Virus record (IMG/VR): IMGVR_UViG_3300045995_000467
Span: 1-45,069 of that record
Reading direction: 5' to 3' (one strand)
From: a virus
Length of the DNA: 45,069 bases
Part shown: positions 1 to 45,069 of the stretch, one piece after another
Layout: every line of letters starts with the position of its first letter
Numbering within the stretch: position 1 is the stretch's first letter
Translations under genes and position numbers: made by a program
The notes under the pieces: model-generated
Told to the model about the DNA's origin: nothing
Seen by the model: only the letters and a program-made list of their open reading frames with translations
Database searches by the model: none

Positions 1-813
1 AAAGGGTCGTTAGCAAGGCGAATAAAAGCTATAAAACTGGTTGAGTCTGATTTTATGGGCAACTTGTTAGTATTGGACAATCATTTAATGATTGATAGCA
101 CAGTAGATATGTCGATGCTAAAAATTGAAATAGACAAATATAACCCTATCCTGGTTATATTTGACACATTCGGTTCGTTGGTTGGCAATACCGATGAAAA
201 TAGCGCGTCGGATGTCGGTAGGGCGTTACGGTTAGTGAAGGAAACGTGCCGTAATGGCACAACAAGCTCAATGATAGTGCATCATTATGGTAAAGACGGC
301 AGTAAGGGTATGCGCGGGTCAATAGCTTTTAAAGCCAACACCGACTTTGAATTTAGTCTTGAAAGGCAAGCATCGACAATGATAACCGTCATGGAATGTG
401 TGAAGATGAAAGACGGCGAAAACTTCTACCCCATAGCTATGGAGGCTCATATAGTTGATTTAGGGCTGGTTAGGCAGGATGGTAATACATCGACAAGCCT
501 GGTGATAAAAAAATCGACTGGTGACTTTAAAAACAATTCTGGCATGTCATTTCTAACCGGGCAAATTTTAGGCGCTTTGGAATTAGCAATAGAGGAAATT
601 GGTAGTAATTTTTACCACAATTCGGATGTAGTAAAGAGCGTAACACTGGACGATTTCAGGCGTTACGCTTACCCTTTTTTCAATGTTAAGGCCAGTTCAA
701 GGCGCACAACCCTTAAACGCCACATAGATTTAATGATAAATTTCGATAAGATCATGTTTTATAATGATAATTTATGGTTATTGGATAGCGTAACAGGGTG
801 TAACAGGGTGTAA
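1..813 (+). CDS. RepA-like AAA ATPase (replicative helicase), 5' truncated by window edge
   Basis: The frame is open from base 1, so the ATG at 55 is internal. The first residues (GSLARRIKA) match the stretch that follows the GEG strand in RepA/AAA_25 hexameric helicases. ILVIFDTFGSLV is the Walker B strand with its Asp, and MIVHHYGKDGSKGMRGS is the conserved sensor region. The Walker A part is missing because it lies before the window. The last 80 residues look like a winged-helix tail. It probably unwinds DNA for phage replication. The primase fragment at the other end of the window carries exactly the N-terminal domains that usually precede this ATPase, so both are likely one gene. The stop lies inside the first iterons (tandem gtaacagggt). 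Confidence 0.85.
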   Translation, partial: KGSLARRIKAIKLVESDFMGNLLVLDNHLMIDSTVDMSMLKIEIDKYNPILVIFDTFGSLVGNTDENSASDVGRALRLVKETCRNGTTSSMIVHHYGKDGSKGMRGSIAFKANTDFEFSLERQASTMITVMECVKMKDGENFYPIAMEAHIVDLGLVRQDGNTSTSLVIKKSTGDFKNNSGMSFLTGQILGALELAIEEIGSNFYHNSDVVKSVTLDDFRRYAYPFFNVKASSRRTTLKRHIDLMINFDKIMFYNDNLWLLDSVTGCNRV

Positions 814-1064: not shown

Positions 1065-1109
1065 CACAAAAAGAGCCTTGATTTCTACATAAAATAAATA
1101 ATAAATAAC

Positions 1110-1158
1110 TTTACATTTAATTAAAAAAGAGTATACTATATATCAAGCCATCCGGCTT
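1110..1158 (+). promoter_or_regulatory. Sigma70-like promoter with 5'-terminal mRNA hairpin (copy 1)
   Basis: TTTACA (1110-1115), a 16-bp spacer and TATACT (1132-1137). The expected start near 1144 is followed at once by the hairpin AAGCC-ATCC-GGCTT (1145-1158), so the transcript would begin with a small stem-loop. The whole element from about 1088 is nearly identical to the reverse complement of 35797-35853, and the hairpin alone recurs at 1442-1455. It drives the small genes from 1183 on. Confidence 0.65.
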
Positions 1159-6922: not shown

Positions 6923-7582
6923 ATGTCAAGTCCACAATATCCAACAAGTCAACCGGTTAACGGAGTGGTTCCGGGCGTAGTAATAATGACGCTTGACGGC
7001 AACGGAGTAGCTCAACCGGCCGGAGGCGGCGGTTCCGGTACATCAGACACCACCGAAACCACACAACTGCTGGTAAAAACCGCCGTCCAGGATTTAGACA
7101 CAGCAATGGGCACAGTGACAGCCAGTCCTACGGCCAATACTTTGTTAGACAGGGTTAAAGCGTTACTAACCGGCACTATCCTTGCCGCTGGATCGGCAAT
7201 TATCGGCAAAGTGAGCATTGACCAAGTTACCTCCGGCGCTAATATAGTCGTGTCCACAACACAGTCATCCACTAATGTATCTGTATCGGCGTATGCCACA
7301 AACTTGGTTATTTCTGCGACATCAAAAAGATTATTCGGGATGAGTGGGTACAATTCAAATGTGGCGGGGCAATTTATACAATTGCACGACGCTTCGACAT
7401 TACCCGCAGATACAGTCGTACCAGTCGTTATATTTTTTGTCCCTGGATTATCTAATTTCAGTATTGATTTTGGGGTACGCGGCAGGAATTTCACCACCGG
7501 CATTGTCGTTTGCAATTCCAGTACTGGTCCAACCAAGACCATTGGCGCGGCCGATTGTTTCTTTGATGCACAGGTACTGTGA
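6923..7582 (+). CDS. Putative virion protein, beta-rich
   Basis: 219 aa, no recognised catalytic motif. N-terminus VVPGVVIMTLDGNGVAQPAG and the Gly/Ser linker GGGGSG followed by a helical segment (TTQLLVKTAVQDLDTAMGTV) and Thr/Val/Ser-rich strands are typical of phage head-associated or decoration proteins. Translationally coupled to the propeller gene (TGATG). Confidence 0.55.
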   Translation: MSSPQYPTSQPVNGVVPGVVIMTLDGNGVAQPAGGGGSGTSDTTETTQLLVKTAVQDLDTAMGTVTASPTANTLLDRVKALLTGTILAAGSAIIGKVSIDQVTSGANIVVSTTQSSTNVSVSAYATNLVISATSKRLFGMSGYNSNVAGQFIQLHDASTLPADTVVPVVIFFVPGLSNFSIDFGVRGRNFTTGIVVCNSSTGPTKTIGAADCFFDAQVL

Positions 7583-9024
7583 TGAGCAATTTACAAATAA
7601 CCCCCGCGATAGGTAATAGCCTTTCTTTATCCGGCGTAATCAGGACAGATGCTTTTTTACAGTCAAAGTATAGAGTAGTAGCGCCGCCGTTTGCTAAAGT
7701 AAATTCTACTGGCGCTTTGACTACCATAACGACCGCTATTGCCTCCGGCACAGGTCCATATTCAGTCTGTGCCGATCCCACAGGCCGTTTTGTTTATGCG
7801 GCTAATTTTGGTGCCAACACCGTCTCGATGTATTTGATCAACCAAAGCACAGGCGCTTTGACCAGCATAACGACCGCTATCGCTTCCGGGACAAGTCCAC
7901 GTTCAGTCTGCGCCGATCCGACTGGACGTTTTGTTTATGCGGCTAATAATACTGGAAACACCGTCTCGATGTACTCGATCAATCAAAGCACAGGCGCTTT
8001 GACTACCATAACGACCGCTATCGCTTCCGGGACAACTCCACGTTCAGTCTGTGCCGATCCGACTGGACGTTTTGTTTATGCGGCTAATTTTGGTGCCAAC
8101 ACCGTCTCGATGTACTCGATCAATCAAAGCACAGGCGCTTTGACCAGCATAACGACCGCTATCGGATCGGGGACAGCTCCTTTTTCAATCTGCGCCGACC
8201 CGACTGGACGTTTTGTTTATGCGGCTAATAATACTGGAAACACCGTCTCGATGTATTTGATCAACCAAAGCACAGGCGCTTTGACTTTAATTACGACTGC
8301 TATTGCCTCCGGGACAGGTCCACAATCAATCTGCGCCGACCCGACTGGACGTTTTGTTTATGTCGTTAATTATGGTGCTTCCACCGTCTCGATGTACTCG
8401 ATCAATCAAAATACAGGCGCATTGACTACCATCACAACAGCCATCGGATCGGGAACTAATCCTTTTTCAATCTGCGCCGACCCGACTGGACGTTTTGTTT
8501 ATGTCGTTAATTATGGTGCCAACACCGTCTCGATGTACTCGATCAATCAAAGCACAGGCGCATTGACTACCATCACAACCGCTATCGGATCGGGAACTAA
8601 TCCTATATCAGTCTGTGTTGACCCGACCGGACGCTGGGCGTATGCAACTAATTACATTGACTACACAGTTTCGATGTTCTCAATCGATTACACGTCTCTC
8701 GCACGGTTAGACGCACCGCAAACTTTTCTTGCGCAGCAAACATTTACTAATATAAATCTGGATAAAACAATAATTGCCGCAGGCACTACAGGCGCTCAAA
8801 CTATAAATAAACCTACAGGTTCCGTCAATTTTGCGGCGGCAGATGCGTCATTAGTAGTGACAAATAGTTTAGTGTCCGCTACCAGCATTATACAAGTATC
8901 CGTTGGTACTAATGATGTCACCATGAAATCGGCTCAAGCAGTTGCCGCCGCCGGCAGCTTTACAATATACCCAAGCGCCAACCCGACAGCAGAAACGCGG
9001 GTTAATTTTACAATAACAAATTAA
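7582..9024 (+). CDS. Seven-bladed beta-propeller virion protein
   Basis: I choose ATG 7582 (overlapping the previous stop) over an adjacent GTG. After a 40-residue N-terminus come exactly seven near-identical 47-residue repeats with the pattern STGALT-ITTAI-SGT-P-S(V/I)CADPTGRFVYA-N-NTVSMY-INQ, the lactonase/YVTN type, enough for one closed seven-bladed propeller. The remaining about 110 residues contain a beta-rich trimer-like tail (KPTGSVNFAAADASLVVTNS) often found at the ends of phage surface proteins. No lactonase metal-site residues can be assigned, so binding (host surface, mucus or partner protein) is more likely than catalysis. Confidence 0.75.
   Translation: MSNLQITPAIGNSLSLSGVIRTDAFLQSKYRVVAPPFAKVNSTGALTTITTAIASGTGPYSVCADPTGRFVYAANFGANTVSMYLINQSTGALTSITTAIASGTSPRSVCADPTGRFVYAANNTGNTVSMYSINQSTGALTTITTAIASGTTPRSVCADPTGRFVYAANFGANTVSMYSINQSTGALTSITTAIGSGTAPFSICADPTGRFVYAANNTGNTVSMYLINQSTGALTLITTAIASGTGPQSICADPTGRFVYVVNYGASTVSMYSINQNTGALTTITTAIGSGTNPFSICADPTGRFVYVVNYGANTVSMYSINQSTGALTTITTAIGSGTNPISVCVDPTGRWAYATNYIDYTVSMFSIDYTSLARLDAPQTFLAQQTFTNINLDKTIIAAGTTGAQTINKPTGSVNFAAADASLVVTNSLVSATSIIQVSVGTNDVTMKSAQAVAAAGSFTIYPSANPTAETRVNFTITN
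7705..8691 (+). repeat. Seven tandem 141-bp repeats (propeller blades)
   Basis: Seven in-frame units of 141 bp, many stretches identical at DNA level (e.g. cgttttgtttatgcggctaa in four units). The last unit is the most diverged. High DNA identity means recent expansion or gene conversion, and unequal recombination could change the copy number. Confidence 0.9.
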
Positions 9025-34106: not shown

Positions 34107-34424
34107 TCAATATCCAAAAGTTTTTGACTTTGGTGGTTCCCAATTGTAATTTTCTGCAAAACGTTCGGCGTTTCTAATTTCAAAAATTTGCATTTCATGA
34201 CCGTAACAATCATAAAGAAAGTCACCAACAAAAACCGGCTTTTTTTTAACATACGCGATGGGAAAGATATACAGTGATGGTTCGAGACTAAAACCCGGTT
34301 GCACATTTTCAGTTATAGTAAAAAGATTATTAGCCGCGCCAGTCAATTTAAAACACGGATCAGCATCACCGCACATCCTCAAAACTTTAGCCCAGGCTTC
34401 GTATAAATCCGCTTTAGTTTTCAT
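34107..34424 (-). CDS. Hypothetical 105-aa protein, paralogue of the 34754 gene
   Basis: FPIAYVKKKPVFVGDFLYDCYG followed by AERFAENYNWEPPKSKTF matches FPLAVVEGKPVFVGDKLYNVDG and PELFAKKHSWNPP of the gene two places upstream. The N-terminal helix (KADLYEAWAKVLRMC) also matches KAELHRKYADALELC. A small beta-rich protein family of unknown role in phage early regions. Last gene of the leftward block; its start overlaps the previous stop. Confidence 0.65.
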   Translation of the reverse strand: MKTKADLYEAWAKVLRMCGDADPCFKLTGAANNLFTITENVQPGFSLEPSLYIFPIAYVKKKPVFVGDFLYDCYGHEMQIFEIRNAERFAENYNWEPPKSKTFGY

Positions 34425-34753: not shown

Positions 34754-35209
34754 TTATTTTCCGTCCAGCAAGTCAAAAATGTATTTTTTTACCCTATCCG
34801 AATCAGCCCTGTTTCTAAAGTAAAAATTAGTATTGTCTATAAACAGGACATATCCGCCAGGCTCGATTGATGGACATGGCACCTTAGTGCCATTCAACAT
34901 AAAAGTTTTAGGCTTGATTGGTGTTGGCGGGTTCCACGAATGTTTTTTTGCAAAAAGTTCTGGATCACTCATATTGCAAAGGATTTCCGCAAAAGTGCCA
35001 TCGACGTTATAAAGTTTATCGCCCACAAAAACGGGCTTGCCTTCCACGACGGCAAGTGGAAAAGTATAGTCATCTAAGTATTCGGTAAAAGTCGGAAGAA
35101 ACCCAACATAGTTACCGTCAAATTTAAACGACTGACAAACTGGCACGTTATGCTTTTCGCACAACTCCAAAGCGTCTGCGTATTTTCTATGTAATTCTGC
35201 TTTTTTCAT
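34754..35209 (-). CDS. Hypothetical 151-aa protein, paralogue of the 34107 gene
   Basis: I use ATG 35209 (gggggtt upstream) instead of farther in-frame starts lying in the neighbouring gene. N-terminal half is shared with the 105-aa paralogue (KPVFVGDKLYNVDG, SWNPP); the extra C-terminal part repeats the theme (KVPCPSIEPGGYVLFIDNTNFYFRN). Confidence 0.65.
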   Translation of the reverse strand: MKKAELHRKYADALELCEKHNVPVCQSFKFDGNYVGFLPTFTEYLDDYTFPLAVVEGKPVFVGDKLYNVDGTFAEILCNMSDPELFAKKHSWNPPTPIKPKTFMLNGTKVPCPSIEPGGYVLFIDNTNFYFRNRADSDRVKKYIFDLLDGK

Positions 35210-35423: not shown

Positions 35424-35757
35424 TTTGTTGTCCCGGATATTCCCGTTTAGCAAGCGCCCAGGCTTGTGAGCGTATGGCATTATTGATGAGGGTATTGATA
35501 GGGTCGTGCCGGTTTTCCCATTTACCATACAATGTGCTTCCGACAATAGCCCGCAGCAGCTCGTAGTCCTCGTCATTGAGCAATTCAGCCGATAGATGAT
35601 TGATAAACGCCACCGAGGCTATATCAACGTCGCTTTTTATTTCTTTTTCGATTTTGTCAGTAAGACACGCTTGTTTTTGTTCCAAGGCTTCTTCAAGAGT
35701 CGTTTCTGGTTCTTGTGCATTGTCGTAGTCCAGTTGATTTTTAAACATTTTTATCAC
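35410..35757 (-). CDS. Hypothetical 115-aa protein whose 5' end is duplicated upstream
   Basis: The first 23 codons (starting MIKMFKNQLDYDNAQEPETT) are the same as those now fused to the Hsp90-like ATPase gene, apart from one codon. The remainder (KIEKEIKSDVDIASVAFINH, AIRSQAWALAKREYPG) is helical. It is preceded by a promoter and leader very like those at 1110-1158. It appears to be the original gene into which the ATPase unit was inserted; it was kept intact because the repeat restores its start. Confidence 0.6.
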   Translation of the reverse strand: MIKMFKNQLDYDNAQEPETTLEEALEQKQACLTDKIEKEIKSDVDIASVAFINHLSAELLNDEDYELLRAIVGSTLYGKWENRHDPINTLINNAIRSQAWALAKREYPGQQNDNV

Positions 35758-35759
35758 CC
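35689..35759. repeat. 71-bp direct repeat, copy A
   Basis: Identical to 37421-37491 except one base (aagag versus aaaag). Covers the ribosome site and first 23 codons of the 115-aa gene. Confidence 0.9.
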
Positions 35760-35796
35760 CTAAAAATTATTGTTATTGGCCGAATGGCTAACTTGT

Positions 35797-35824
35797 AATA
35801 TACTCTTTTTTAATTAAACGTAAA
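35797..35824 (-). promoter_or_regulatory. Sigma70-like promoter with leader hairpin (copy 3)
   Basis: On the - strand: TTTACG (35824-35819), 16-bp spacer, TATATT (35802-35797). About 55 bases around it are nearly identical to the + strand promoter at 1110-1137. The leader again starts with a GCC-ATTC-GGC hairpin (35778-35788), then an A/T leader and aggggtg before ATG 35757. Confidence 0.65.
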
Positions 35825-35875
35825 GTTATTTATTATTTATTTTATTTATATCGTCATTTTTGTTAAAATCACGCG

Positions 35876-37489
35876 CTAAAGTTTCAAACGCTTAACTAAT
35901 TGTTCGACAATCCGATGTGCTTCACCTCTATCTCGGCAAATTTCATGGATGTGACCAAAAATTTCAACATACTCTTGAGCTACAATTTTTGTAGGTGTAA
36001 TGCCGTTGAAGCTTTTTTTCACAAGTTCCATTCTAGTGGAAAGGTCATCAACATCAACTAACAAATATTTTCTATCTTGTTCGGTAAGTAAGTCTGACTG
36101 GATAGCTTTTGTTGCTAATACAATAAGATTTTGACAGTTTTCAATGGCTAGCTTTCTGGATGTAAATGACAAGTTTTCATCGCAAGCAAATTCCAATTCA
36201 GCGCTACATTTCGCTAAATAATCTCTTGCAATTTTGACTCTGTTTCGAGCGGAAGATTTGTCACGACATTTCTTTGATATCTTGCTAGCATTTACTGACA
36301 CCTGCCCTAAAAGGTTCTGGTAATGAACGCTGTATTCGAAATCATCACGTCGCCCATTCGGAACTATTTTGTCTGAAAGAACATGGACCTCTGCGACGGT
36401 CCATGAATTGAAACGAGATTCTGGGAATATATCAGCTACCAGCTCAGCGGAACCAACCTGAATATTCCCAGAACGGATTCTGACGCCTGAAAGACCAAAC
36501 TTTTTTGTTATTGATCCATGGTATGAGTGGTTAAGAATCCAACCAATAGCATCTTGAGTGCCATCTTGGCCAATTACTTCAAAAAACTCTACATCTGTAA
36601 AGTGATCCTTTAGTTTCTCAGAAACAAAAAATTCCGTTTGATGTGGTCGATATATTTGTCCTCTACCGTCATTAATTGTGACGTTATATGTTTTAGCTTT
36701 TCCGTATTGAGCCAACCTAGTTTGAATTTTATGGCCTAATTCAAATTCGGGGTGAAATGGAACAGAGCCTACTTGAGCTAAGTAAGATCTCACCTCATCT
36801 TCATTAAGTAACAAGTCATTTTTTAGTCGTCCTACTTTAACTAATTCCACCTCGAAAAAATGCGGCAAGGAGTTATCAGCTTGAATAATCTTAATTGTGG
36901 CTATTTCTTTGATTATATCTACAAGGCTACCTTTGAAGTCTGGGTTCCTTATGGTCTCTTTAAGTTTTCGACCATTCCAACTTAACTCATAAATATTGGC
37001 ATCACCTGCCGCCCTTGAGCGGAATATAAGTTCTTGGCAGTATCCAAGGCCAGAGAGGCGGCCAACACCACGAAATCCACGCTGTCCTTTTCCTCGCTTC
37101 TGACTTCCTCCGATAGCCGTAAGGATATGTGAGAATTCCTTGTTGGAGACTCCTATCCCGTTATCACGAATTCGAATTGATCGACTTGTCTGGTCAAGTT
37201 CAATAGATATGCTGGGGGAATGCTCTTCATATAGATTATTTCTTTCGGCTTCATCAATTGAATCAACTGCGTTCTGCATATACTCGCGATATATACATAA
37301 TGGATCAACATACATAGCCCCAGTTAGTAGATCTAGAATATCTTTCCCAATTACAATATCTCCCTCAATCGCACTTGGCTTGTAAATGTTTTGTGCTATA
37401 GGTATTTGTGGATAATTCATTTCTTCAAAAGTCGTTTCTGGTTCTTGTGCATTGTCGTAGTCCAGTTGATTTTTAAACATTTTTATCAC
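35876..37489 (-). CDS. Hsp90-like (GHKL) ATPase, likely cargo gene
   Basis: 537 aa. The Bergerat fold is clear: REYMQNAVDSIDEAE (Asn73 for Mg-ATP), IRIRDNGIGVS (Asp109, DNG-x-G) and the glycine lid GQRGFRGVGRLSGLG (about 135-149). The middle domain resembles HtpG/MORC-like proteins, but the C-terminus is unrecognised and far shorter than HtpG. Residues 1-23 come from the neighbouring gene; the ATPase's own ATG is codon 24, exactly at the repeat edge. Stand-alone ATPases like this occur in defence loci, so a role in defence against other phages or in counter-defence is plausible but unproven. Confidence 0.8.
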   Translation of the reverse strand: MIKMFKNQLDYDNAQEPETTFEEMNYPQIPIAQNIYKPSAIEGDIVIGKDILDLLTGAMYVDPLCIYREYMQNAVDSIDEAERNNLYEEHSPSISIELDQTSRSIRIRDNGIGVSNKEFSHILTAIGGSQKRGKGQRGFRGVGRLSGLGYCQELIFRSRAAGDANIYELSWNGRKLKETIRNPDFKGSLVDIIKEIATIKIIQADNSLPHFFEVELVKVGRLKNDLLLNEDEVRSYLAQVGSVPFHPEFELGHKIQTRLAQYGKAKTYNVTINDGRGQIYRPHQTEFFVSEKLKDHFTDVEFFEVIGQDGTQDAIGWILNHSYHGSITKKFGLSGVRIRSGNIQVGSAELVADIFPESRFNSWTVAEVHVLSDKIVPNGRRDDFEYSVHYQNLLGQVSVNASKISKKCRDKSSARNRVKIARDYLAKCSAELEFACDENLSFTSRKLAIENCQNLIVLATKAIQSDLLTEQDRKYLLVDVDDLSTRMELVKKSFNGITPTKIVAQEYVEIFGHIHEICRDRGEAHRIVEQLVKRLKL

Positions 37490-37491
37490 CC
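37421..37491. repeat. 71-bp direct repeat, copy B
   Basis: See 35689-35759. The inner end abuts the ATG (37420) of the original ATPase frame and keeps it in frame, so the two copies bracket a 1,661-bp unit of ATPase gene plus promoter. Confidence 0.9.
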
Positions 37492-37766
37492 GCTTTTTTT
37501 TCTTCCAAATCTAATATAGCGTCACGCCGCATAAAAAATTCATCAAGATAATCATCAAGATAATCATCAAGATAATCATCAATTAATAAGGCGCGTTTTT
37601 TTTTAGGTATTTTTTGCGCCTTTAAGTGTTTATCCAGTTCTTTTGTAAAAACGGCATCACTTATCATTTGCGCCTTTAAGTGTTTATCCAGTTCTTTTGT
37701 AAAAACGGCATCACTTATCATTGTGGCATCAATTGTTAGATATTCGGTTAATGTTAGTTTTGTCAT
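37473..37766 (-). CDS. Repeat-containing acidic/basic protein (97 aa)
   Basis: Start ATG 37766 overlaps the previous stop. Contains MISDAVFTKELDKHLKAQ twice in tandem and then DDYL three times, followed by EFFMRRDAILDLEEKK. Both repeats are exact or nearly exact in DNA, so its length can vary by slippage. Function unknown. Confidence 0.55.
   Translation of the reverse strand: MTKLTLTEYLTIDATMISDAVFTKELDKHLKAQMISDAVFTKELDKHLKAQKIPKKKRALLIDDYLDDYLDDYLDEFFMRRDAILDLEEKKAGDKNV
37541..37586. repeat. 12-bp tandem repeat (catcaagataat)
   Basis: Nearly four units of catcaagataat, coding for DDYL units in the - strand gene. A multiple of three, so copy changes keep the frame. Confidence 0.85.
37613..37720. 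repeat. 54-bp tandem duplication
   Basis: 37613-37666 and 37667-37720 are identical copies; 18 codons each, in frame. A very recent duplication. Confidence 0.9.
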
Positions 37767-40458: not shown

Positions 40459-40608
40459 TCAAACCCAGCTCCTGCTCCCGCTCCCGCTCCAGCTCCTGCT
40501 CCAGCTCCCGCTCCCGCTCCTGTTCCAGCTCCCGCTCCCGCTCCAGCTCCCGCCCCCGCTCCAGCTCCTGCTCTCGCGTTTAAATTGCGATCTTTTAGTG
40601 TTTATCAT
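40459..40608 (-). CDS. Low-complexity Ser/Arg/Trp/Gly peptide (49 aa)
   Basis: ATG 40608 has an excellent ribosome site (gaggaag). After MINTKRSQFKRE it reads through a degenerate hexanucleotide tract as SRSW / SGSG repeats to the stop. Another frame of the tract reads (Ala-Gly)n but lacks a start. Either a disordered peptide or a DNA element that only happens to be open. Confidence 0.4.
   Translation of the reverse strand: MINTKRSQFKRESRSWSGGGSWSGSGSWNRSGSGSWSRSWSGSGSRSWV
40466..40576. repeat. Hexanucleotide microsatellite (ctcc(c/a/t)g)n
   Basis: About 18 units of ctcccg, ctccag or ctcctg in a GC-rich island inside AT-rich DNA. Frame-preserving unit length. Comparable in design to the ccgtag tract at 42763-42942. 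Confidence 0.85.
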
Positions 40609-42759: not shown

Positions 42760-42966
42760 TTAGCCGTCGCCGTAGCCGCTGCCGTCGCCGTAGCCGCTGC
42801 CGCTGCCGTAGCCGCTGCCGTCGCCGTCGCCGCTGCCGTCGCCGTAGCCGCTGCCGCTGCCGTAGCCGTAGCCGTAGCTACCGTAGCCGTAGCCGTTGCC
42901 GTAGCCGTTGCCGTAGCCGTTGCCGTAGCCGTAGCCGTCGCCGGTCAATGTTTCTATGCTATCCAT
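42760..42966 (-). CDS. Gly/Tyr/Asp/Ser dipeptide-repeat protein (68 aa)
   Basis: Begins MDSIETLTGDGYGYGNGYG and continues as alternating Gly with Tyr, Ser, Asp or Asn to the end. Encoded by a hexanucleotide (ccgtag / ccgctg / ccgtcg) tract. No fold expected; Gly/Tyr-rich chains can form condensates. Overlaps the DUF6948-like gene by 13 bases; the combination recurs in related phages in my recollection. Confidence 0.65.
   Translation of the reverse strand: MDSIETLTGDGYGYGNGYGNGYGNGYGYGSYGYGYGSGSGYGDGSGDGDGSGYGSGSGYGDGSGYGDG
42763..42942. repeat. Hexanucleotide tract (ccgtag/ccgctg/ccgtcg)n
   Basis: About 30 consecutive six-base units with one variable triplet. Strongly GC-rich against an AT-rich background, and frame-safe for expansion or contraction. 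Confidence 0.9.
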
Positions 42967-43659: not shown

Positions 43660-43688
43660 AATATAAACTTAATTTTATTAATTGTCAA
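43660..43688 (-). promoter_or_regulatory. Consensus sigma70 promoter of leftward early operon
   Basis: On the - strand TTGACA (43688-43683), 17-bp spacer, TATATT (43665-43660). The best promoter in the window; it drives the DUF6948/Erf/SSB operon. A palindrome taaatattta (43691-43700) lies just upstream, possibly an operator. Confidence 0.8.
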
Positions 43689-43782: not shown

Positions 43783-43983
43783 ATGACAAAAACAGACGTT
43801 ATAAATTATTTCGGCAACAAAACAAAAACAGCCAGAGCGCTAAGGATAAGCTATCAAGCCGTAAAAAATTGGCCTGTAGAATTAACGGACAGGATTGCCT
43901 TTCGCGTTGAGCTGGTGACCAATGGGGCGCTAAAAACCAATGAAACATTATTAATGGAGCAATTAAAAAATGATAATAGATAA
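43783..43983 (+). CDS. cro: Cro-like repressor (P22 Cro family)
   Basis: 66 aa. MTKTDVINYFGNKTKTARALRISYQAVKNW has the P22-Cro helix-turn-helix (KTARALRISYQAVKNW), then ELTDRIAFRVELVTNGAL as the dimer strand. Expected to bind between the divergent promoters and switch off early transcription. No partner CI gene is visible across from it. Confidence 0.85.
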   Translation: MTKTDVINYFGNKTKTARALRISYQAVKNWPVELTDRIAFRVELVTNGALKTNETLLMEQLKNDNR

Positions 43984-44075: not shown

Positions 44076-44300
44076 ATGACAATTTTAGAAGACCTGGAAA
44101 AACAAACAGAAATAAAACCTACGGGAAACGCCGGTATGTTAAAGCCGTGCTCTCGTTGTGGACACAAAGAATTTGAAGTTAAATTTTGTATCAATAAAGA
44201 CGGTAAAACATGCTATCCCTATTTTTGTAAAAAATGTAATAACCGTAGCCCGATAATCGAGACTAAAGACTATGCCAAAAGCTTGGGGTTTTTTGTATGA
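44076..44300 (+). CDS. Zinc-ribbon protein (74 aa)
   Basis: PCSRCGHKEFEVKFC ... YFCKKCNNRSP: two C-x2-C pairs about 24 residues apart form a zinc ribbon. Ribosome site aagggg. ATGA overlap with the primase gene. Similar small zinc-ribbon proteins (Lar-like) precede phage replication genes; role unknown. Confidence 0.7.
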   Translation: MTILEDLEKQTEIKPTGNAGMLKPCSRCGHKEFEVKFCINKDGKTCYPYFCKKCNNRSPIIETKDYAKSLGFFV

Positions 44301-45069
44301 TTAATGACTATGATAATATCCCACAAATCATGCGCGACGCTCCCCGCTGGCTACTTTGGAGATTAATACCCCGCAAAGACACCGCTAAAAAACCCCGTAA
44401 AGTCCCTTTTTATTGCTCAGGCGAACCGAGAAGTGGGGAGCTTGACAGTGCTGCCGACTTGGCAAACTTTGCGACGTTTGAAGCCGCGTATAGCGCTTTT
44501 ACAGAAGGCAACTATACTGGCTTTGGCTTTGCGCTAGGTCCTGACGGCACTGGCAATTATTGGCAAGGGGTTGATTTTGATGTTGTATCAAAACGCCCAA
44601 TTTTAGGGCTCATGGTTGAAGATATGCCCGGCTATACGGAGCTGTCCCCATCAGGAGATGGTTGGCATAGCATAGGCTATGGGCGTAAGTTTGAGTCAAT
44701 GGGCAGCAATGAGTCGGGTATAGAGGCTTATAGCTCAGGACGTTATTTTACAGTGACAGGGGAGTGCTCTGGAATTGCTGATCCATGCTGTATAGCTGAC
44801 TATGTAGAGCAGTCTTTAAAGCCACTGCATACGCCATTTATTGTAAAAGAGCAGGACATAACCCTGCCATTAGAAACAATATCACCCAAAAACATGGCAG
44901 CGCTACGCAGCGCGCTCTTATATATGCACAGCGATGACAGAGAATTGTGGCAAAAGAACGGGCATAGGTTAAAAGGTTTGGGCGACGCTGGTCGAGGGTT
45001 ATGGTTTGAGTGGTCTAGCCAGTCAGCCAGTTATGATCCTCCGGAAGACGCTAAAACCTGGGAGTCTTT
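44297..45069 (+). CDS. Primase-polymerase with PriCT-2 domain, 3' truncated by window edge
   Basis: 257 codons visible, no stop. N-terminal prim-pol: YWQGVDFDVV (catalytic Asp93, Asp95), SPSGDGWHSIGYG (His124), GIEAYSSGRYFTVTG, as in NrS-1-like primase-polymerases. From about 205, SDDRELWQKNGHRLKGLG, FEWSSQSASYDPPEDAKTWESF is PriCT-2. The usual next domain is the RepA-like helicase found at base 1 on the same strand. It makes primers and perhaps copies DNA at the phage origin. Confidence 0.85.
   Translation, partial: MINDYDNIPQIMRDAPRWLLWRLIPRKDTAKKPRKVPFYCSGEPRSGELDSAADLANFATFEAAYSAFTEGNYTGFGFALGPDGTGNYWQGVDFDVVSKRPILGLMVEDMPGYTELSPSGDGWHSIGYGRKFESMGSNESGIEAYSSGRYFTVTGECSGIADPCCIADYVEQSLKPLHTPFIVKEQDITLPLETISPKNMAALRSALLYMHSDDRELWQKNGHRLKGLGDAGRGLWFEWSSQSASYDPPEDAKTWES

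Follow-up and report, generated by a model that had tools for sequence, protein, structure and literature searches.

An orphan Hsp90-like ATPase gene joined to a duplicated translation start in a phage early operon: a candidate counter-defence protein

The 45,069-nt stretch of viral DNA analysed here (hereafter, the window) contains a lambda-like control region, comprising a Cro/CI-like gene and a pL-like promoter, followed by a leftward gene run with ERF, SSB and antirepressor genes. Placed in this run, directly after a small gene denoted gene U, is a gene for an Hsp90-like ATPase, P0001, the start of which lies within one of two copies of a 71-bp direct repeat. The features of the locus, together with the promoter-like elements discussed below, are as follows:

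1086..1138, plus strand: P1, a promoter-like element (TTTACA-16-TATACT) before the ORF at 1183, paralogous to P2
35410..35748, minus strand: gene A, encoding P0002 (112 aa, no known function), in the reading frame that continues from repeat copy A
35689-35759, minus strand: repeat copy A, with the ribosome site and the first 20 codons of gene A
35796..35848, minus strand: P2, a promoter-like element (TTTACG-16-TATATT, hexamers at 35824-35797) with an A/T-rich upstream part
35876..37480, minus strand: Hsp90-like (GHKL) ATPase P0001, 534 aa, assigned by Pfam HATPase_c_3, fold and the starts of its relatives
37421-37491, minus strand: repeat copy B, whose ribosome site and 20 codons are fused to the ATPase and which contains the stop of gene U (37473-37475)
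37473..37766, minus strand: gene U, 97 aa, the upstream neighbour of the ATPase gene, with a stop that overlaps the ATPase start (ATGTTTAA)
43660..43688, minus strand: pL-like promoter (TTGACA-17-TATATT, recognised by consensus match only) heading the leftward early operon
43783-43983, plus strand: Cro/CI-like gene, divergent from the pL-like promoter

The two repeat copies, recovered here at the same coordinates as in the first-pass annotation, are identical at 70 of 71 positions, with a single base difference, and their starts are separated by 1732 bp. The longest exact run within the repeat is 62 nt, whereas 10 shuffled windows gave longest exact repeats of 13-16 nt, a difference that excludes a chance origin. 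On the minus strand, both copies comprise 11 nt of leader including the ribosome site, followed by 60 nt of coding sequence, i.e., 20 codons from the ATG. Copy B runs in frame into the ATPase and copy A into gene A, which, as had been proposed, is thereby kept whole at 112 aa. The ribosome site previously placed in the repeat is present, whereas the number of codons had to be corrected from 23 to 20, the protein lengths from 115 and 537 aa to 112 and 534 aa, and the ATP-site residues from Asn73 and Asp109 to Asn70 and Asp106 (the same residues, renumbered from the ATG); the earlier numbering was off by three because the ORFs had been started at an in-frame GTG located three codons upstream and overlapping a GGGTG ribosome-site-like sequence. 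The 1,661 bp between the copies carry the intact ATPase gene on the minus strand and, except for an antisense frame at 37140-37385, no other ORF of at least 60 aa. Terminal inverted repeats were sought at the ends of this segment and none were found. Transposon-type insertion was considered and rejected, given the lack of a transposase and of terminal inverted repeats as well as the length of the duplication, which at 71 bp far exceeds the usual target duplications.

Other repeats are scattered over the window. A 141-bp unit (47 codons) occurs six times in direct orientation at positions 7708-8712, the copies being 72-90% alike, in a 481-aa ORF (7579-9024) between the portal and head protease genes, and short in-register tandem repeats with units of 6-12 bp are found at 42763-42957, inside the ORF 42760-42966, and at 40465-40566. 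Gene U itself contains a 54-bp tandem duplication and 12-bp repeats encoding DDYL units (37533-37715), a duplication-prone region directly upstream of the ATPase gene. Downstream of gene A, 2 paralogous small genes with 34% identity (34107-34424 and 34754-35209) are located two places apart.

The first codon past copy B is an ATG (M21 of P0001, 37418-37420), followed by A. In an alignment with the four nearest relatives, M21 pairs with M1 of 3 of them (L041, L044 and L045) and with M4 of the fourth (L043), in agreement with the earlier observation that copy B is fused exactly at the ATPase's own ATG; candidate starts in the remaining relatives fall mostly around P0001 residues 14-28. Given that the relatives' ATPases begin at M21, residues 1-20 represent a phage-derived addition. 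In the AlphaFold (AF2) model, residues 1-22 have pLDDT values below 50, and the N-terminal tail is thus predicted to be probably disordered and attached to a well-folded protein.

P2 is located downstream of the ATPase gene and reads into gene A, and hence is not the promoter of the ATPase. P1 and P2 are 94% identical, both with A/T-rich upstream parts, lie in opposite orientation 34.7 kb apart and each head a gene run. Over the core the match is 48 of 50 positions, and over the transcribed leader 29 of 51, which exceeds the shuffled sequences in all but 4 of 500 cases; no RNA structure beyond that of shuffles was detected in the leader. The first-pass annotation had suggested that the inserted segment brought along a promoter and leader homologous to those at position 1110: the homology is evident for the core and fainter for the leader, but the element serves gene A rather than the ATPase. 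Compared with the repeat copies, identical at nearly every position, the leaders of the promoter pair have diverged considerably, so that the pair appears to predate the 71-bp duplication. P2 is therefore probably a promoter that gene A already possessed and not part of the same recent event, and we infer that this event placed a duplicate of the translation start of gene A, together with the ATPase gene, upstream of P2. In an alternative order of events, the ATPase gene and P2 may have been inserted jointly into a U-A operon.

P0001 matches Pfam HATPase_c_3 (2.5e-11), and its AF2 model (mean pLDDT 86) displays, according to Foldseek, the Hsp90 N-terminal plus middle domain fold, with TRAP1 and HtpG as the best PDB matches; its original identification as an Hsp90-like ATPase is thus borne out. 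The C-terminal part is helical, and neither the model nor the Foldseek matches revealed an effector domain in the protein. No PADLOC 2.0 family matched P0001 or the gene A product, P0002. The C-terminal region has diverged slightly beyond background (0.15 against 0.20, sd 0.08); divergence of this region as a mark of lost partner binding was considered and rejected, because the value falls within the background of comparable pairs. Of the 51 positions conserved across 95% or more of the relatives, P0001 retains 50, the sole exception being P239S, and the near-invariant residues that are kept include E66, N70, D106, G108, RGFRGVGRL and NGRRD, indicating that the ATPase gene is not decaying. This bears on whether the gene could be a functionless newcomer, inserted recently by accident and retained because it is harmless. 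The single base separating the repeat copies implies that the duplication is recent or that the copies are kept alike by recombination, and the phage is an isolated case with no second example, both of which would be in keeping with an accident. However, such an accident would have had to hit the native start codon exactly, in frame and with a ribosome site supplied, and to leave an intact frame of 534 codons with 50 of 51 conserved positions kept, so that we regard it as very improbable.

The protein resembles the chaperones Hsp90, HtpG and TRAP1 in the fold of the N-terminal ATPase and middle domains, but the structural matches are only 12-15% identical, no counterpart has been established for the C-terminal helices, and P0001 fails the HtpG and Hsp90 equivalog cut-offs (38 bits against 371 and 59 against 455). 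RIIA of T4-like and other phages (PHROG 24904, 38678 and 612) is likewise a solitary phage GHKL ATPase with N-terminal and middle domains of similar fold. However, the sequence match to RIIA profiles is confined to the ATPase domain (approximately residues 43-167, E 1e-6), so that P0001 was rejected as an RIIA homologue, its true family being one found in bacterial operons.

A profile scan of bacterial genomes, with two short patterns, yielded 385 genome relatives of P0001, and the neighbourhoods of the best 80 of these were inspected together with viral and plasmid loci; more orphan copies may thus occur in the family. Family members are 34-42% identical to P0001 from end to end (40-42% for the nearest), and full-length relatives found by tblastn on alphaproteobacterial plasmids cover 92-95% of the protein at about 38% identity. 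No close relatives of P0001 were found in IMG/VR. In the ATPase tree, the root of which was placed for drawing only, P0001 is nested among operonic ATPases, with a sister group made up of the Methylobacter, Nitrospirae MAG, Paraburkholderia and Roseateles copies (SH-aLRT 95). The terminal branch leading to P0001 is long (0.85), but a similar length is seen elsewhere in this tree (0.83 for L045). Screening of other Gammaproteobacteria for further ATPase copies gave a single positive among 369 genomes, namely Methylobacter itself.

The family has a highly conserved gene neighbourhood. A B12-type radical-SAM gene adjoins the ATPase gene in 98 of 100 loci from bacterial genomes, plasmids and viral contigs, comprising 88 of 90 genome and viral loci (L041-L130), 3 further viral loci (L174, L175 and L178) and 7 plasmid or phage-collection loci (L034-L040). 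Among the former 90, the radical-SAM gene is upstream of the ATPase gene in 86, and in 48 the ATPase start overlaps the radical-SAM stop by 4 nt (ATGA); the 2 loci that have no adjacent radical-SAM gene are L048, where the contig starts within the ATPase gene, and L128, a distant paralogue in a different cluster. Most bacterial loci also encode a DGQHR protein (DndB in Pfam, DpdB in PADLOC), a ZorD/DpdE-like SNF2 helicase and ParB-like proteins, and some a PIN protein and a second Hsp90-like ATPase. The resulting island, with DGQHR, B12-type radical-SAM, Hsp90-like ATPase, ParB-like and SNF2-helicase genes, often accompanied by the PIN protein and second ATPase, recurs in L035, L036, L038, L039, L041-L045 and others. 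One locus retrieved with the plasmid and phage collections, L040 (MT836743.1, 'Bacteriophage sp.', from human faeces), has a run of HerA-like, Hsp90-like ATPase, radical-SAM and Schlafen/AlbA-like genes and may be a fragment of a bacterial or mobile-element genome instead of a phage.

The DGQHR/radical-SAM/ATPase island is apparently undescribed: no description was found in the literature searched or in PADLOC 2.0, although such absence is not proof. Judged by its gene content, it appears defence-like, since neighbours of the ATPase resemble the defence components DpdB/DndB, the DpdE/ZorD helicase and ParB-like proteins. The islands share with the Dpd (7-deazaguanine) and Dnd (phosphorothioate) systems the DpdB/DndB-like DGQHR proteins and the DpdE/ZorD-like SNF2 helicase, whereas the phage itself lacks any DGQHR or helicase component of this kind. 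No DpdA, DndC, DndD or DndE was seen among the scanned proteins of the relatives' islands and radical-SAM and Hsp90-like subunits are not known to be components of Dpd or Dnd systems. With the radical-SAM-linked ATPases (e.g., the WP_010890924/WP_011906620 pair of Novosphingobium plasmid pNL1), P0001 shares membership of the family over its whole length, the start and the domain order, but it differs from them in the 20 foreign N-terminal residues and in lacking radical-SAM, DGQHR, helicase and ParB-like partners.

No relatives of the radical-SAM, DGQHR or helicase partners are encoded in the 45,069-nt window. Both ends of the window (1-813 and about 44298-45069) appear to belong to a single primase/helicase gene, which suggests that the genome is circular or permuted with a small gap; the record is then nearly whole, and the gap is unlikely to conceal a partner. 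With the ATPase alone present and the partner common to nearly all relatives missing, P0001 is best described as an orphan subunit, a family member by descent on the grounds of its sequence, and not a complete system. This runs counter to the first-pass view of the gene as typical defence cargo, given that PADLOC gave no match and that in its relatives the ATPase is a subunit of a multi-gene assembly of which the radical-SAM partner is missing here. An ATPase that, alone or with gene A or gene U, protects the lysogen from other phages would fit the intact and conserved state of the gene, the antirepressor and Cro/CI-like genes, which suggest a temperate phage, and the presence of GHKL ATPases in defence proteins, the Shedu protein VcSduA being one example (PMC12137116). 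Nevertheless, we consider such stand-alone defence unlikely, as the protein comprises only Hsp90 N-terminal and middle domains and a helical C-terminus, with no effector domain, matches nothing in PADLOC, is separated from the partners of nearly all its relatives and is encoded in an early lytic operon, not behind a promoter of the kind expected to be active in a lysogen. Lacking effector domain and partner, the ATPase is less likely to provide defence by itself than to interfere in trans.

The Hsp90 N-terminal and middle fold, the conserved ATP site and the absence of a partner from the phage would also suit a chaperone or remodeller, repurposed to act on a host or phage protein independently of the parent system. 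Against this stand the retention of every family position expected in an operonic setting except P239S and a C-terminal region only slightly beyond background divergence (0.15 against 0.20, sd 0.08), and this possibility also appears doubtful.

We searched for related phages and for an empty site. No relatives of gene A were found in IMG/VR, in 30 related phage records, among phages and plasmids or in 301 genomes of the Methylobacter order, and the gene at 34754, the repeat sequence and the promoter have no close relatives in IMG/VR. No relative with a single copy of the 71-bp sequence was found, neither gene A nor the genes around it having a relative in any collection searched. What related phages have in common with this one is mostly structural genes, at about 25-66% identity, and no early gene adjoining the ATPase is among them. 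A terminase search for the host in two bacterial orders gave a best identity of 45%.

Collectively, these observations lead us to propose, with a probability of roughly 0.5 for the proposal as a whole, that P0001 is a captured orphan subunit expressed early in infection and acting in trans as counter-defence; the direction of capture, the expression and the role in counter-defence are what we infer. The phage would have captured a single gene, that of the Hsp90-like ATPase subunit, from a bacterial DGQHR/B12-type radical-SAM/ATPase system. Because the ATPase start often overlaps the radical-SAM stop, the captured gene would have arrived without a ribosome site of its own, and its ATG would have been joined exactly to a 71-bp duplicate of the ribosome site and first 20 codons of gene A. 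The ATPase gene would thereby have entered the leftward early operon in translatable form and in coupling with gene U, with gene A remaining intact behind its own promoter. Produced early in infection without partners and with an intact ATP site, the ATPase would then most likely act in trans on the cognate system of the host, either as a decoy for partner binding or by forming an unproductive, dominant-negative mixed complex. The complete set of ATP-site residues argues against a pure decoy, which would not need the ATP site. Interference in trans, RIIA-like in kind, would be the most economical function. RIIA, a phage GHKL protein of the same fold, has been described as a counter-defence protein (PMC7824862), so that a solitary GHKL ATPase of a phage would have a forerunner in such a role. 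More tentatively, and with odds clearly lower than those of the proposal itself, the stolen subunit may poison from inside an uncharacterised defence or DNA-modification system built of DGQHR, B12-type radical-SAM and Hsp90-like ATPase proteins.

Captured host subunits are known in phages, and the value of this one lies in the pointer to an uncharacterised system. The junction solves a real problem, in that a gene whose start often lies within the preceding gene obtains a working start copied from the adjoining phage gene. A phage early gene is here tied to a widespread uncharacterised bacterial cluster, with the lone subunit pointing both to the job of this cluster and to a way in which it can be blocked. 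The ATPase is thus a testable candidate for a phage countermeasure and, should it indeed poison that system from inside, the orphan gene would be the first evidence that the DGQHR/radical-SAM/ATPase system restricts phages.
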